Below are positions 12,487 to 19,668 of a DNA stretch of 64,000 nt, piece by piece; positions within the stretch are counted from its first letter, which is position 1; each line of letters starts with the position of its first letter. The notes beneath the pieces were generated by a model. The model worked only from the letters and a program-made list of their open reading frames with translations, did no database searches and had not been told where the DNA came from. Both the position numbers and the translations under genes were made by a program. The stretch is from Gammaproteobacteria bacterium (GTDB lineage: Bacteria > Pseudomonadota > Gammaproteobacteria > SURF-13). The stretch lies in assembly GCA_030680605.1 (NCBI GenBank), contig JAUXUQ010000010.1, positions 1 through 64,000 on the forward strand. Direction: 5' to 3'.

Positions 12487-12694
12487 GTACGGCCAGCGGC
12501 GGTGCGTCATAAGTCCGTCACCTGTGCCGTGGTATGGTATTTTTTGATTAATGCGCCCGGCATTATTGCGTTTGCAAAGGGACGGCCGCAAAATCTGTCT
12601 GTCCTGCGCCCGCAGGTCAGACTGCCCACGGCAAGATCGAGAGCGCACCGGGATTCCTGCCCGGTTGAGGACATACAAGCATAGGAGGTGGCCC

Positions 12695-12916
12695 ATGCCT
12701 TCCAGCCATGAATCCGGTGTAGTGTCGCTCGCCGCCCGGGTGCTTATTGTCGCAGTACTCGTTGGGAGTGCCTTGCTGGCAATATTCAAATGGATATTCA
12801 CCCAGGTTGATGTCACAGAAGTGCTGACATTAATTGCGCTGTTTTCGCTGGTTGTCGCTGCCGCACTGAATGTAGCCTGGACACGGTGGAGGCGACGCCA
12901 GGGAGAGGGGCAATGA
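12695..12916 (+). CDS. Small two-helix membrane protein
   Basis: This 73-residue protein is preceded by a very strong ribosome site (TAGGAGGTG) eight bases from its ATG. It has two hydrophobic helices (about residues 12-33 and 42-62) and a basic C-terminus (WTRWRRRQGEGQ). No family is recognised. It overlaps the following lipoprotein gene by four bases, so the two are translationally coupled. The 208-bp region 12487-12694 upstream has no other visible gene. Confidence 0.65.
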   Translation: MPSSHESGVVSLAARVLIVAVLVGSALLAIFKWIFTQVDVTEVLTLIALFSLVVAAALNVAWTRWRRRQGEGQ

Positions 12917-13743
12917 GGCCGGCCACAACGCGCCTGTTACTGGCAATCATGGTATGTGTTGCCAGCCTTATTACTGCCTGCGAGCCCTCGCAAGAGGCGA
13001 AACGGACAGATGTGCCCGTCTCGGCACCACCGCCAGCAGCCAAAAACGGCAAGGCCGAGACTGCCAGGCCGCCCGCCATGGCAAACGGCCCTGTAACACC
13101 ACAGGTGCTCCACCATGCGTATGATCTCCTGGCCGCATTCGACAGTGAGCGCCCGGGGTACGCTGTGTACACCTACGTACTGTTCGGGCGCAGGGTGGGT
13201 GCGCAAGCCCCATCCTTGTCGCATGATGTGGCGCAACGCTACCAGGCCCTGCTGGCGGCTATCGAATCCTCAACCAGTACCGCCAGTGAGCTGGAAGCGG
13301 CCAATATCCCCAAAGATGAAACCAACCTGTTCAACATTCCCGCTATATCCACCGATGCCCCCCCTACCCTTGATAACTATGCCTCTGGTCTGGCCTTGCA
13401 ATACCGCAGCATGGCCCTGGGCGCCTTCCGGGATGAGGACAAATTCCGGGGGATGCTATCGCATGGCGCCGGCCCGTTTCTGATTTCCGTGCTGCGGCCG
13501 CTGAACCAGGTGAGGAGCCCGGAGCCGTTGTTGTTTGCCGATCTTTCCGCGCATAACCCTGCGGCCATGCGCGAGGTGGTTGCGGCCTACAAGCAACGCA
13601 TCAACCGCAGCCTGCCTGACCGGGTGGAGTCATTTGAGTCGCTGCGGCTTGATCTGTTGACGCTGATTCTGGATGCTGACAACCACGTCAAACTCGTCAA
13701 GGACGCCGTAGCCGACTGGCGTAACGCATTTCCAGAACAGTAA
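12913..13743 (+). CDS. Hypothetical lipoprotein
   Basis: The 276-residue protein begins with a short basic stretch, a hydrophobic core and the lipobox ITAC at about residue 21, so it should be lipidated and carried to the envelope. A Pro/Ala/Lys-rich linker is followed by a soluble, mostly helical domain. I recognise no enzymatic motif. Coupling with the small membrane protein before it suggests a common function in the envelope. Confidence 0.65.
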   Translation: MRPATTRLLLAIMVCVASLITACEPSQEAKRTDVPVSAPPPAAKNGKAETARPPAMANGPVTPQVLHHAYDLLAAFDSERPGYAVYTYVLFGRRVGAQAPSLSHDVAQRYQALLAAIESSTSTASELEAANIPKDETNLFNIPAISTDAPPTLDNYASGLALQYRSMALGAFRDEDKFRGMLSHGAGPFLISVLRPLNQVRSPEPLLFADLSAHNPAAMREVVAAYKQRINRSLPDRVESFESLRLDLLTLILDADNHVKLVKDAVADWRNAFPEQ

Positions 13744-13778
13744 CTGTCTACTCTACCGTGTAAATCGAGGAGCAGGCC

Positions 13779-13922
13779 ATGGAGAACACGCAGACCTGTA
13801 TCAATGATTTTTCCAGCCGCGTCAGGGAACGCTGATGGGTGGCGCCAGGGGGCAAAAAGCACCGTACCCGGTACAGCCCACCTGATCGCAAAGCATTGCA
13901 GGGCAAGTGTGAGGTGGTCTGA
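13779..13922 (+). pseudogene. Short ORF interrupted by an in-frame TGA
   Basis: After a GAGGAG ribosome site, an ATG at 13779 opens a frame of 48 codons with an in-frame TGA at 13833-13835 (codon 19). Beyond it the same frame runs on with a basic stretch (PGGKKHRTRYSPPDRKA) to a TGA at 13920. It may be a decayed small gene, or chance. Selenocysteine is not supported because no SECIS-like element was identified. The rest of the 253-bp gap to 13997 shows nothing else. Confidence 0.25.
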
Positions 13923-13996
13923 GCTTCTTGCCAGCGGTACAGGATGGTAGGCATGACGTCAGACCAAACAGCGCAGTCCAACCGAGGGAGGATCAC

Positions 13997-14452
13997 ATGC
14001 TAAAGAAGAGAAAGGCCGGCAAGGCAAAACCCCATGCGGACCGTAATGAACGCAAACTGATGGCGTTGGGACGCAAGTGGGAGAAGGTGCTGAAGGCGAG
14101 TGCTACCGATGCTGAGGCGCATATGCACCTGGCCCAAGAGCTCTATGATCTGGCCATTACCACCGAGGACGCCGAGCTCAGGATAGTGGAGCGCAGGCTG
14201 GACAAACCGAAGGCCAAGCCCTCCACCACCCGCTACAAACTTACAGACCCGCGCGCAGCACTGCATACGATGTTGCGGTTTTGCAATGTCTGGATTCCGA
14301 TGGGCCAATGGATTTGCCTGTTGCGCGGCTGCCCGCCCTGGAACCCGCCGGGTTCGCCTGCGGGCAAGTATTGCTTTCTCATCGGTTGCAGCATTAACGC
14401 CTGCCCCACGCCGGGGGCCGCAAGAACGCGCTGTGTTTATCTTTGCATCTAG
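13997..14452 (+). CDS. Hypothetical basic protein with Cys-rich tail
   Basis: A GGGAGGA ribosome site precedes the ATG at 13997. The first 100 or so residues are Lys/Arg-rich and helical (MLKKRKAGKAKPH, then ERKLMALGRKWEKVLKA). The last 45 residues are rich in Cys, Pro and Gly and look unlike the first part, so a frameshift near 14270 is possible. No known domain is recognised. Confidence 0.45.
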   Translation: MLKKRKAGKAKPHADRNERKLMALGRKWEKVLKASATDAEAHMHLAQELYDLAITTEDAELRIVERRLDKPKAKPSTTRYKLTDPRAALHTMLRFCNVWIPMGQWICLLRGCPPWNPPGSPAGKYCFLIGCSINACPTPGAARTRCVYLCI

Positions 14453-14466
14453 GCGATAACTGCATG

Positions 14467-14489
14467 CAGCGGCGCTAGTAGCGCCGCTG
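14467..14489. terminator. Hairpin at convergent gene ends
   Basis: CAGCGGCGCT (14467-14476) pairs perfectly with AGCGCCGCTG (14480-14489) around a three-base loop. It lies between the hypothetical gene ending at 14452 and the leftward holin-family gene, whose stop codon it overlaps. No T-tract follows on either strand, so terminator activity is uncertain. Confidence 0.35.
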
Positions 14490-14858
14490 GCGTGTGATGA
14501 TGACCTCCACCTGCCCGCGTGGGCCGATGAAGTACGACGCGAGCCAGCCGGTCACGCTTACCACAATTGATCCAAACAGCGCCGGCCAGAAACCCGCGAT
14601 GCTGAAGTTGTCGAACATCCACGCCACCAGACCCAGCATCGCCGCGTTGATGACCAGCAGAAACAATCCAAGCGTAAAGATGGTGGCAGGCAACGTGAGG
14701 ATAATCAGTACCGGCCGCACCACGGCATTGACGATACCCAGCAGCAGCGCCGCTCCGAGCAGGGTGCCTGCGCCACGCACCTCAATGCCGGGCACCAGCT
14801 CGGAGGCCAGCGCCAGGCCAAGTGCAACGATCAGCAGACGTAAGATGAGGCCGGCCAT
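14475..14858 (-). CDS. Phage holin family (YvlD-like) membrane protein
   Basis: The 127-residue protein has four hydrophobic helices and the pattern GAGTLLGAALLLGIVNAVVRP with LTLPATIFTLGLFLLVINA, typical of the Phage_holin_4_2 / YvlD family. These are usually chromosomal membrane proteins of unknown function rather than true lysis proteins, and no phage genes surround it. ATG codons at 14873 and 14915 are alternative starts; 14858 best matches the usual length. Confidence 0.75.
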   Translation of the reverse strand: MAGLILRLLIVALGLALASELVPGIEVRGAGTLLGAALLLGIVNAVVRPVLIILTLPATIFTLGLFLLVINAAMLGLVAWMFDNFSIAGFWPALFGSIVVSVTGWLASYFIGPRGQVEVIITRQRRY

Positions 14859-15010
14859 TGGGTATCTTCGCATATCCAATGCGGCTCCGGCAGGGTTTCC
14901 CGGAGCATATGCCACTTGCGGTGGAACAAAGTAAGGCGTTTAATCTGGCGTGTATGAGCCGATACGGCCTTCAGCGTGCAGCCGGTAGAACAATCATGAA
15001 GGGAGGAAAC

Positions 15011-15351
15011 ATGCGCAACACATGGCTGAATTACCGCTGGATGATGGCGCTGATACTAACGACCCCGCTCCTGAGTGGGCCCGCTTTGGCGGAGAGTCCG
15101 CAGGGGGCTGGGCAGACACAAGACATGACGACGTTGCAGCTGCACATCTCCGAGGATGGCAGCGCCATCGTAGACCAGAGCGGAAAAGAGGTGGCCCGTT
15201 TCAGCGAAGGCATGCGGGTCAATCCCGAACAACCCGGGCGCTATGCCAGCAGGGATGCATGCGCTGCACCATGGAGTGCATCATCTGGGAGGGCGAGCGC
15301 TGTGTGAAGGAGATTCAGTCCTGCACGTGGGATTTCGACTGTAAAAAATAA
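15011..15351 (+). pseudogene. Frameshifted secreted Cys-rich small protein
   Basis: A GGGAGGA site precedes the ATG at 15011, which opens a signal peptide ending in ALA. The first frame gives a plausible mature part (LQLHISEDGSAIVDQSGKEV) up to about 15250. Convincing coding then continues in the -1 frame, with CMRCTMECIIWEGERC and CTWDFDCKK, to the TAA at 15349. A single-base deletion around 15240-15265 would explain this. Repairing it yields a protein of about 113 residues with six or seven cysteines. Confidence 0.55.
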
Positions 15352-15382
15352 AGGTAATCAGGGCATGGATGCCGGGCGGCCG

Positions 15383-15805
15383 CTACTTGACGTCGACCAG
15401 CTCCACGTCAAAGATCAGCGTCGAGTTGGCCGGAATCGGCCCCCTGTCCTGCGTGCCGTAGGCCAGGTGCGGCGGAATAATCAGGGTGCGCTGGCCGCCG
15501 ACCTGCATGCCTTCGAGGCCCATGTCCCAGCCGCTGATGACGCGCCGGGTGCCCAGCACAAAGGTGATCGGCTGGCCGCGATCGAGCGAGCTGTCGAACT
15601 TGGTGCCGCGTTGCTTGGGAGCGGCCGCATCATACAGCCAGCCGGTGTAGTGCACCGAGACCTGCTTGCCTGCGCTGGCCTCGGCCCCTTCCCCCGCCCG
15701 CAGATCGATTTTGACCAGCTCCGTGGGTGCGGTGGGCGTCGGTTCGGCATAGGCCGTAATGCAGGCAGCGAGTGCTGCGAATGCCAGCAAGGTGCGAATG
15801 TTCAT
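15383..15805 (-). CDS. FKBP-type peptidyl-prolyl cis-trans isomerase, exported
   Basis: The 140-residue protein has a signal peptide (MNIRTLLAFAALAACITAYA) and a single FKBP domain with VSVHYTGWLYD, FDSSLDRGQPITFVLG, VISGWDMGLEGM and the C-terminal TLIFDVELVDV. It should catalyse proline isomerisation in periplasmic protein folding. The start at 15805 is preferred over the longer frame because it opens the signal peptide. It converges with the frameshifted gene upstream, 31 bp away. Confidence 0.9.
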   Translation of the reverse strand: MNIRTLLAFAALAACITAYAEPTPTAPTELVKIDLRAGEGAEASAGKQVSVHYTGWLYDAAAPKQRGTKFDSSLDRGQPITFVLGTRRVISGWDMGLEGMQVGGQRTLIIPPHLAYGTQDRGPIPANSTLIFDVELVDVK

Positions 15806-15950
15806 CAAGGCTCCATCGGGAAAGATTAAGGACTGTGCGGCAAGTATAACCCAGCCATGTCCGTTGGTTTGGCAGGTGCGGGCTGGCAATGCCCTTTTAA
15901 AGCTACCTATTGCAGATGGAGTAACACTCACCGCTCCCCTGTTACAGCTG

Positions 15951-17294
15951 TCAATTCTGCGTCAGCCTGCGCAAGCGCGCCTCCAGATTGGGCGGCGACA
16001 TGAACGTCAATATCTTTTTTCCTAATCGTCGCCTTACTAACAGTTCCTTGTCCGCGAGATCAAACAGGTCGGCGCGTGCTGTTGCATAGGCAACACTGTG
16101 GCTGGTCTGGTGTGATCGTATGGAGTACTCGGTGCCGGGGTGTCTGATGGCATGGCCAAGTAATGCAAGTTGACGATGATTAATGTCTCGAAAATTCTTA
16201 AGCATCTTTTGCACGACGCGCGTCTGCTCCATCTTTCTTTGAAGATATTTTTCCAGATCGGCAATTGCGCGAATGATTACATCAAGCTGGTGGATGATGA
16301 AATAAGTAAGATCGTTGTCGTCTGTCTCCGAGTGGAGATAGGACTCTCCATACTGAGCCGACGCCTCCTTGAGTATCCTGGATATGGATACAAATTCGAA
16401 CAGCCAGTAATCCTGGGCAAGCATGGACCAGTAGAATAATGCCCTTGCGGTTCGGCCATTGCCATCTATAAAGGGATGATCATAGGCCAGCCAGAAGTGC
16501 AGGATGATCGCCCTGATGATGGGGTGCACATATCCCTTTGTGTGGGTGACATCGTTTGCGAATTCACACATTTTAACCAGGCGGTCTGGCAGCTGGTTTG
16601 CAGGCGGCGGCGTGTGAAGAACCTGTTGGCTCGTATTGTCAATAACGCGCACTCTCTCCTCTCTGACATCCTGAAGTTTCCCGGCAGCGGCAGGGTCATC
16701 GAGTGTGTCTCTGGTCAGAACCTTGTGCAAATCCAGCACGGTTTCCGGCGTGAGTGCTGTGTTCTTCAGGCTGCGGATCTTGTTCATGGCCTCGAAATTG
16801 TTGAAGATCATCTGCTCGCTGGTATTCCGGGGCGTGGTTCCATTGCGCAGCATGTCCGCGGCGACCTGGCGCGTCGTCGAAGCACCTTCAAGCTGGCTGG
16901 ATGTAATCGCCTCCTCCACGAGTGAGTTAAAGATATAGCGGTCGCGTGTTTCTGGTGTGGTGATCTGTTCCGGCAACTCGATACGCCCGCCGCCCTTGCG
17001 GTCGATCAGATGGACTTTTTCCTGCACGATATCGGGCATCGTGAAGCTGAAGGGCTGACCGGCAATGTCCTTCAGCGGCAACGTGCGGTACATGCCCGAT
17101 CGCGCAAACTTCACGCCCAGCCACCACTCTTCATGGTTGAGGTCGCAGGGTGGCGTAAGATGCCGCAGCTTGTCCCAGTGCAGGTAGCGTCCTTTCGGGG
17201 CGGCGTTAATGCCGCATCTGATGATGTCCGGTAAGCGCGCTGCGTATTTGATGAAAAGCTCTGATCGTTGCTTGGGCCTTTGGGCGACTTTCAT
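15951..17294 (-). CDS. Fic family protein with C-terminal winged helix
   Basis: Fic enzymes transfer AMP (or another nucleotide moiety) to hydroxyl groups of target proteins. The 447-residue protein has the complete catalytic motif HPFIDGNGRTAR at about residue 273 and an N-terminal inhibitory motif SSQLEG (about 132-137) fitting (S/T)xxxE(G/N), so it is a self-inhibited class II Fic. The last 70 residues look like a winged helix-turn-helix. The ATG at 17294 is used rather than a TTG further up. The immediately upstream DNA is an operator array (17295-17429), so autoregulation is an attractive inference. Confidence 0.9.
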   Translation of the reverse strand: MKVAQRPKQRSELFIKYAARLPDIIRCGINAAPKGRYLHWDKLRHLTPPCDLNHEEWWLGVKFARSGMYRTLPLKDIAGQPFSFTMPDIVQEKVHLIDRKGGGRIELPEQITTPETRDRYIFNSLVEEAITSSQLEGASTTRQVAADMLRNGTTPRNTSEQMIFNNFEAMNKIRSLKNTALTPETVLDLHKVLTRDTLDDPAAAGKLQDVREERVRVIDNTSQQVLHTPPPANQLPDRLVKMCEFANDVTHTKGYVHPIIRAIILHFWLAYDHPFIDGNGRTARALFYWSMLAQDYWLFEFVSISRILKEASAQYGESYLHSETDDNDLTYFIIHQLDVIIRAIADLEKYLQRKMEQTRVVQKMLKNFRDINHRQLALLGHAIRHPGTEYSIRSHQTSHSVAYATARADLFDLADKELLVRRRLGKKILTFMSPPNLEARLRRLTQN

Positions 17295-17429
17295 ATTGAT
17301 TATCAATTCCCATAAAATTGATGATACTCAATCAATGATTTAAATTCAGTAATTGATAAATATACATCAATTTTCTAATTATTGATAATTCTGTATCAAT
17401 TTATCAAAAATATTGATCAATGTATTGAT
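17295..17429. promoter_or_regulatory. Array of ATTGAT dyads in the fic upstream region
   Basis: This AT-rich 135-bp stretch holds three exact dyads ATTGAT-N8-ATCAAT at 17317-17336, 17352-17371 and 17381-17400. A tight palindrome ATTGAT-T-ATCAAT abuts the fic start codon (17295-17307), and further hexamers lie at 17412-17417, 17416-17421 and 17424-17429. Identical half-sites with identical 8-bp spacing are the expected footprint of a dimeric DNA-binding protein. recQ ends at 17464 on the same strand, so this is most likely the fic control region. Confidence 0.75.
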
Positions 17430-17463
17430 TATAATAGAGATAAGTTGTATCGGGGTCATTATT

Positions 17464-19668
17464 TCAATCGAAAATGGCGTCAGCCTCGACCGCCTTCACA
17501 CACCGCAACACCTCATACGAATACCGCCCGCCCAGCGCCTCGAACACCGGCTTGAGCGCCTGTCCGCCACCGTTGGCGTGCAGGGCGGCGTGGATGCGGG
17601 CCAGGTCTTCCTCGTCCAGCGGTACCACATCGCGCAGTTTGAGTTCGCCGCGGGCGATGGCGAGTGTGAGATGGTGGTAGACGGTGGTCTGTTTCAGGCC
17701 GCGGCGGTCGGCGATGGCGGGGGCGTCCAAGCCGAGGCGGAACAGGTGCAGGGTTTCGGCGGCGGTGTCTGAGAGGGCGGTGTTTTTGTCATCCTGCGCG
17801 AGGATGGTTTCGAGAAAATCCTCGCCGTAGGCGGCGAGCTTGCGTTCGCCGACGCCGGAGATGTGCGCGAGTTCTTCCAGCGTCTGCGGGCGGCGCTGAA
17901 CCATTTCGGTGAGGGTGGCGTCGTGGAACACGACATAGGGCGGCACGCCTTGCGCCAGGGCGAGTTCGCGGCGGCGGGCGCGCAGGGCTTCCCACAGCAT
18001 CAAGTCGGCTTCGCTGGTGAAGGCGCCGCCGCGCTTGGAGTCTTTTGCTCCTGCCCTGCCCTCTCCCTTCAAAGCTGAGGTTTTGGTTTTGACGGGATCG
18101 CGGCGCAGCCACAGGCGCTCTTCGCCGCGCAGCACGGGGCGGCAGGCATCGGTGAGTTGCAACGCGCCGTGGCCTTCGATGTCCACGTCGAGCAGGCCGC
18201 GTGCGATGAGCTGACGGAAGATGCTGCGCCATTCCTGCTGGCTCAAGTCCTTGCCGATGCCGAAGGTGCTCGACGTGTCGTGGCCGAAGCGCTGGATGCG
18301 GTCGTCTGTTTTGCCCATCAGCACGTCGAGCAGATAGTTCACGCCAAATCGTTGCCCGGTGCGGTGCACGCAGGAGAGCGCCTTCTGCGCGGGCACGCTG
18401 GCGTCCCAGGTTTCGGGCGGGTTGATGCAGGTGTCGCAGTTGCCGCAGGGGTTGGGCTGCGCATCGTCGAAGTAGGCGAGCAGCGCCTGGCGGCGGCAGG
18501 TGGTGAGCTCGCACAGGCCGAGCATGGCGTCGAGCTTGAGGCGTTCGACGCGTTTGCGCGCGGCGTCGGCCTCGCCGGCTTCGAGCATCTGGCGTAGCGT
18601 GATGACGTCCTGCAGGCCGTAGATCATCCACGCGTCGGCGGGCAGGCCGTCGCGTCCGGCGCGGCCGGTTTCCTGGTAATAGGCCTCGATGCTCTTCGGC
18701 AGGTTGAGGTGCGCGACGAAGCGCACGTTGGGTTTGTCGATACCCATGCCGAAGGCGATGGTGGCGACGATGATGACGCCTTCCTCGTTGATGAAGCGCG
18801 ACTGGTTGCGTTCGCGCACGTCGGCGGAAAGCCCGGCGTGATAGGGCAGCGCGGCCAGGCCTTGGGCTTCGAGCCAGACGGCGATTTCGTCCACGCGCTT
18901 GCGCGAGAGGCAGTAGACGATGCCGGCGTCGCCCGCGTGTTCGGTGCGGATGAAGCGCAGCAGTTGTTCGCGCGCACTGCTACCCCGTCCGCTGTCGGCT
19001 TGCGCGATGCGGTAGCGGATGTTGGGGCGGTCGAAGCCGCTGATGAACACGTGCGCGTTTTCGAGGCCCAGGCGCGTGATGATCTCGCGCCGCGTGGGTT
19101 CGTCGGCGGTGGCGGTGAGCGCGATGCGCGGGATGCCGGGGAAGCGCTCGTGCAGTACGGAAAGTTGCATGTACTCGGGGCGGAAATCGTGGCCCCATTG
19201 CGAAACGCAGTGCGCCTCATCGATGGCGAACAGCGCGATGTTCGAGCGCGCCAGCAGGTTGAGCGTGCGCTCGGTCATCAGGCGTTCGGGCGCGACGTAC
19301 AGCAGATCGAGTTCGCCGCGCAGGAGTTGTTGTTCAACCATGCGCGCCGTGGCGGCATCAAGCGTGGAATTCAGAAGTGCCGCACGCACGCCGGCTTGCT
19401 TCAGCGCCGCCACCTGATCCTGCATCAGCGAAATCAGCGGCGAGATCACGACGCCGGTGCCGGGGCGCACGATGGACGGAATCTGGAAGCAGAGCGACTT
19501 GCCGCCGCCGGTGGGCATGAGCACCAGCACATCGCTGCCCGCCATGAGGGCGCGGATGACCGCGTCCTGCGGCGCGCGGAAGCGTTCGTAGCCGAAGACG
19601 GTGCGGAGAATGTGGAGAGGTTGGTGTTCCATGGCGGGTGCGTCGACTACTTTACCAGGCCCGCTCAT
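17464..19668 (-). CDS. recQ: ATP-dependent DNA helicase RecQ
   Basis: RecQ is a 3'-5' helicase acting in recombination and fork repair. The 734-residue protein has MPTGGGKS (Walker A), [14 protein letters not shown], the zinc-binding CxxxxC...CGNCDTC cluster, an RQC region, an HRDC domain ([29 protein letters not shown]) and an extra C-terminal helix-turn-helix region. This is longer than the E. coli enzyme, mostly because of that tail. An in-frame ATG at 19632 is a possible alternative start. The upstream gene is an unrelated membrane protein. Confidence 0.93.

Follow-up and report, generated by a model that had tools for sequence, protein, structure and literature searches.

A predicted autoregulatory operator array in front of a fic gene

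We analysed a window of 64,000 nucleotides (positions 1 to 64,000 of contig JAUXUQ010000010.1, from a gammaproteobacterium) in which an array of short inverted repeats lies directly in front of a fic gene. In all likelihood, the array is the fic operator, bound by the C-terminal winged helix-turn-helix (wHTH) of the Fic protein itself and switching off its own gene. The original prediction, made from the window's sequence, had proposed this reading, which now has strong comparative support from conserved site geometry among relatives and covariation of the sites with the wHTH, as well as from sites almost exclusive to the fic promoter and from a structural model. Repression, as distinct from binding, is the more conditional part of the proposal.

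The array and the Fic protein

The features concerned, in window positions, are:

15951-17294, minus strand: fic, encoding a 447-residue Fic AMP-transferase, class II by its motifs (Pfam Fic, 1.7e-19)
17295-17307: tight palindrome ATTGATTATCAAT (ATTGAT-T-ATCAAT), abutting the fic ATG at 17294-17292
17301-17323: predicted gene-proximal core operator dyad, TATCAA-N11-TTGATG, one mismatch, -29 to -7 from the ATG
17317-17336: first N8 dyad, exact ATTGAT-N8-ATCAAT; TTGATG-N6-AATCAA in the half-site register
17352-17371: second N8 dyad, exact; TTGATA-N6-CATCAA in the half-site register, R-N6-F as in homologues L007 and L008
17365-17387: predicted gene-distal core operator dyad, CATCAA-N11-TTGATA, one mismatch, -93 to -71 from the ATG
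17378-17407, minus strand: best sigma-70-like promoter for fic, TTGATA-18-AATAAT, 10/12, a consensus match only
17381-17400: third N8 dyad, exact; TTGATA-N6-TATCAA in the half-site register, R-N6-F as in L007 and L008
17402-17430: further half-sites at the distal end, TATCAA at 17402-17407, a GATCAA pair at 17413-17420 and AATCAA at 17425-17430 (minus strand)
17464-19668, minus strand: recQ, upstream neighbour of fic on the same strand

The array occupies most of the recQ–fic gap, and its region is 19% G+C. All three dyads ATTGAT-N8-ATCAAT that had been reported were found, as was the palindrome touching the start codon, and the 135 bp from 17295 to 17429, described as rich in hexamers, hold 11 copies of ATTGAT or ATCAAT. 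The 8-bp spacers of the dyads had been called identical, which is correct for their length but not for their sequences (GATACTCA, AAATATAC and AATTCTGT). Since the gap is very AT-rich, we used as null model 5,000 dinucleotide shuffles of the 169-bp recQ–fic intergenic region alone. The shuffles held 1.47 hexamers on average (maximum 7) and 0.003 N8 dyads, and none of the 5,000 reached either 11 hexamers or three dyads. A search for a tandem repeat in the array region found none. Such density is rare in the window, as had been stated, with no other hexamer as dense save in the poly-C run at the start of the contig. That run, 21 C at positions 1-21, is probably an assembly artefact. Throughout the 1.87-Mb genome, the N8 dyad has no copy beyond the array, and TATCAA-N11-TTGATA with at most one mismatch occurs at three sites, two of them inside the array. 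Near-perfect sites are thus essentially confined to the fic promoter, which suggests a regulator that serves only its own gene.

The Fic protein (P0001) has the catalytic motif HPFx[DE]GN[GK]R in the form HPFIDGNGR (residues 273-281) and, N-terminal to the Fic core, the inhibitory helix [ST]xxxE[GN] in the form TSSQLEG (residues 131-137), of which S132, E136 and G137 are invariant alignment columns. Because both motifs are conserved, it is by motifs a class II Fic AMP-transferase. An AlphaFold model made with 15 relatives (pLDDT 82) agrees with the earlier assignment of a terminal winged HTH, placing a wHTH at residues ~373-432 with helices 373-384, 392-399 and 403-415 and wing strands 420-424 and 428-432. 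Helix 403-415 takes the recognition position in this model, with Y403, A404 and T405 as predicted specificity residues. Among the Foldseek matches in the PDB, the best is CbFic2 (8cil), and SoFic (3eqx) is also present. P0001 matches the PADLOC SoFic profile (3.9e-36, residues 121-423), a profile match that says nothing on defence, and scores 44.9 bits with the NCBIfam SoFic model (NF046030) against a curated cut-off of 550; we therefore describe it as SoFic-like, not SoFic.

The recQ–fic gap contains no antitoxin gene. In a same-genus genome hemW adjoins recQ and the fic stretch is missing; the corresponding ~5 kb of the window (12487-17463) contain, among other genes, fic and those for an FKBP and a Phage_holin_4_2 membrane protein. 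A fic match was found in 39 of 369 genomes of the class, counting the window's own, and in none of the sampled same-genus (G113) and same-family (G230, G328) genomes, which is why we regard fic as horizontally mobile. Draws from the class of G369 and the order of G084 gave samples of insufficient size, with one locus added by a second class draw. A search of genome contigs gave 17 more homologous loci, Geothrix among them, which under current classification lies outside the window's phylum. Phage and plasmid collections yielded distant relatives only.

The conserved operator unit in relatives

We scanned the 200 bp before 54 homologous fic genes for perfect 6+6 inverted repeats with orientation kept. 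Perfect N11 dyads whose left arm starts with TA were detected upstream of 22 of the 54 homologues, against 0.47 expected and a maximum of 2 in shuffles. No other spacing in the same orientation occurred in more than 7 genes or formed a comparable peak. Dyads with T[AG] arms and the N11 spacing were found in 25 of 53 upstream regions but in only 0-3 cases in five control regions of equal length around those genes. Two N11 dyads are often present per upstream region, most commonly 42-52 bp apart. We conclude that the conserved unit is TATCAA-N11-TTGATA, in which the hexamers of the N8 dyad are paired differently. The array in the window contains two ATCAAT-N9-ATTGAT pairs, equivalent to TATCAA-N11-TTGATA and built from the same hexamers as the N8 dyads. 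One half of each of these core dyads reads CATCAA (TTGATG on the other strand), not TATCAA, and the left half-site of the proximal one is the TATCAA of the tight palindrome. The N8 dyads correspond to the gaps between neighbouring N11 units (TTGATA-N6-TATCAA).

The functional operator could instead be the N8 dyad as first read, in the form TTGATA-N6-TATCAA, which has three copies in the window and recurs in the close homologues L007 and L008. We consider this improbable, since R-N6-F was seen in 4 genes where 0.6 were expected, a weak family-wide enrichment, compared with 22 and 0.47 for N11, and many homologues have N11 dyads only. The hexamers singled out in the original prediction are thus conserved upstream of fic homologues, but as N11 dyads; their N8 register is restricted to some close homologues.

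A palindrome scan with 8-bp arms had given an excess at every spacing and singled out no unit, and the scan was therefore switched to perfect, oriented 6-bp arms. Peaks for R-F pairs with gaps of 13 and 19 were considered as separate units and rejected as mostly shifted readings of N11 dyads. Several distant homologues (L045-L057, mostly ≤~41% identity) showed no N11 dyad of the TATCAA type; like the CATCAA halves of the window's two core dyads, this counts against the operator reading. Four of these (L045, L046, L048 and L057; Vibrio-like, helix NENTAR) have other inverted repeats upstream, for example ACGTAAA...TTTTACGT in L048, which are perhaps an operator class of their own. Upstream of L029 (helix YERAR), a TACTAC-N10-GTAGTA palindrome at -71 is a possible further specificity class. 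In seven homologues (L006, L011, L015, L019, L022, L024 and L041), a further half-site in direct orientation flanks an N11 dyad at a distance of 10-11 bp, suggesting that a third contact is made one turn of the helix further out.

Covariation of the half-site with the recognition helix

The half-site varies among homologues (TATCAA, TGTCAA, TACTAA, TGCTAA, TACCAA, TACTTG and rarer forms), and we assigned its class from the DNA alone, without the protein. These classes follow residues 403-405 of the Fic protein: YAT goes with TATCAA, RAT with TGTCAA, YQT with TACTAA, TQT with TGCTAA, YDT with TACCAA, and YDV or YDI with TACTTG. Among all scored alignment columns, residue 404 had the strongest association with half-site class (z 11.6); its mutual information equalled the column entropy, and the observed value was reached in 0 of 20,000 permutations. 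Columns 408 and then 402 ranked next, and all three map to the beginning of the predicted recognition helix or immediately precede it. The pairing can be read residue by base, with Y at 403 going with A and R with G, and A, Q and D at 404 going with TC, CT and CC or CT, respectively.

Shared ancestry was considered on a tree built from the Fic core without the wHTH. Phylogenetically independent pairs (starred branches) numbered three, two concordant and none discordant, too few for significance; with just three pairs for the formal test, we relied on sister and recurrent cases. Between the well-supported sisters L011 and L012, Y403R accompanies the change from TATCAA to TGTCAA; between L016 and L019, Q404D accompanies TACTAA to TACCAA; and between L022/L024 and L014/L023, A404Q accompanies TATCAA to TGCTAA. 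The YDT/TACCAA pairing recurs in the distant L041. Genes with spacers of 10 or 12, which lie outside the classified set, also fit the pairing (L027, YDV/TACTTG; L031 and L039, YQT/TACTAA; L043/L044, YAT/TATCAA). The covariation of residue 404 with the half-site thus indicates, indirectly, that the Fic protein itself sets the operator sequence. Direct binding of the array by Fic best accounts for half-sites that vary together with the recognition helix encoded by the neighbouring gene, and Fic very probably does bind it.

The presence of repeats ahead of a gene does not reveal what binds them, and host proteins often control the AT-rich promoters of acquired genes; another host regulator, global or linked to phage or stress, might thus bind the ATTGAT repeats and control fic. 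We regard this as very unlikely, because the half-site tracks fic-encoded residues across unrelated hosts, the dyad is absent elsewhere in the genome save for one weak site, and fic is a mobile gene not found in the sampled genomes of its own genus and family. There is slightly less to recommend the idea that the inverted repeats act as RNA, with hairpins in the fic leader blocking translation. The leader folds at -29.5 kcal/mol (z -2.45), somewhat better than shuffles, and one palindrome touches the start codon; however, a negative z-score is expected from any inverted-repeat array, an 11-nt loop closed by 6-bp, A/T-rich arms makes a poor hairpin, an Rfam search gave no match, and the arms covary with a DNA-binding helix. 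It is extremely improbable that the array arose incidentally from AT-rich, low-complexity or mobile DNA and has no regulatory role, despite the low G+C content and the absence of the fic stretch between hemW and recQ in the same-genus genome, since local dinucleotide shuffles do not reproduce it, it contains no tandem repeat, and its relatives show strict conserved spacing together with protein–DNA covariation.

Predicted regulation and comparison with known systems

In the autorepression that we propose, Fic would bind the 23-bp dyad TATCAA-N11-TTGATA, presumably as a dimer, with one dyad over the likely promoter and the other over the stretch just ahead of the start codon. With two dyads and extra half-sites, several dimers could occupy the region, perhaps cooperatively, and silence transcription. 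In this way, an AMP-transferase that is potentially toxic would keep its own level low, autorepression being added to intramolecular inhibition by the TSSQLEG helix. The sigma-70-like promoter candidate sits within the array, where it shares positions with the distal core dyad, and the proximal dyad ends 6 bp before the ATG, an arrangement that points to repression. We infer repression of fic by Fic from these positions and from the precedent of CccR; bound Fic may alternatively activate the gene, which is compatible with the sequence. A further possibility, to which we give a low but not trivial probability, is that SoFic-like dimers on their own array are held in a restrained or deAMPylating state, modelled on a proposal for CbFic2 on DNA. 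Loss of the array or competition for it, for example during phage infection, would then free active AMP-transferase, so that one gene would be toxin, antitoxin and sensor.

SoFic is an anti-phage Fic family. We examined nine SoFic-proper genes with a full catalytic motif and a readable start (L066-L072, L074 and L075), whose products mostly share 57-70% identity, apart from a trio of more similar proteins. TGTCGA half-sites were present upstream of all nine; the nine 220-bp regions held 40 copies and 20 N15/N13 pairs, against 0.76 copies and no pairs in shuffles. Orientation alternates along these arrays in steps of 21 and 19 bp, which makes them more regular than the array in the window. On this sequence evidence, self-directed operator arrays appear to be common among SoFic-like Fic proteins. 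In a second SoFic-like group (L081-L095; helix RLTAT or RITAT), some members have TTTCTATAC/GTATAGAAA repeats upstream; TATAGAA repeats were considered as the operator of this group, were only partly consistent and are not claimed.

A literature search whose scope left out many subscription journals found no description of the operator family, the residue–base pairing or the SoFic arrays. Autorepression by a Fic-HTH protein is already known from CccR; what is new here is the operator family and a pairing that single substitutions can test. Operators can now be predicted across an entire branch of Fic proteins and also for SoFic. If these predictions are correct, SoFic-type defence genes would encode their own control of expression, and a route to targets elsewhere in genomes would open.

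The closest precedent for the proposed autorepression is CccR of Yersinia pseudotuberculosis, a Fic-HTH effector that represses its own promoter via inverted repeats, as established by EMSA, footprinting and lacZ fusions (PMC9755527). Both proteins combine a Fic domain with a C-terminal HTH, and both genes have inverted repeats in their promoter region. The CccR operator, however, is a single pair, AGATAATCAT-N26-ATGATAATCT, whereas the window has 6-bp half-sites, an N11 spacing and two dyads with extra half-sites; CccR is a T6SS effector, and the window's Fic shows no sign of secretion. CbFic2 of Coxiella burnetii (PDB 8cil), the best Foldseek match, is likewise a class II Fic protein with a winged HTH. 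It binds DNA via this HTH and dimerises on DNA, binding having been assayed on random DNA only, without a known operator, and it has been suggested that DNA binding turns it from an AMPylating into a deAMPylating enzyme (PMC10628234). SoFic (Shewanella SO_4266, E. coli Sofic; PDB 3eqx, PMC12249575) shares the class II Fic domain, the C-terminal wHTH, the PADLOC profile, the fold and an operator-like array upstream of its genes; according to a 2023 paper (PMC10628234), its binding to DNA had yet to be demonstrated. It differs in family score, P0001 falling far below the cut-off, and in its TGTCGA arrays with alternating N15 and N13 spacings. Toxin–antitoxin operons of the phd-doc and yefM-yoeB type resemble the proposed circuit in the negative autoregulation of a toxin gene via operator repeats, but there the antitoxin binds the DNA, whereas in the window enzyme, inhibitor helix and putative repressor form one polypeptide.
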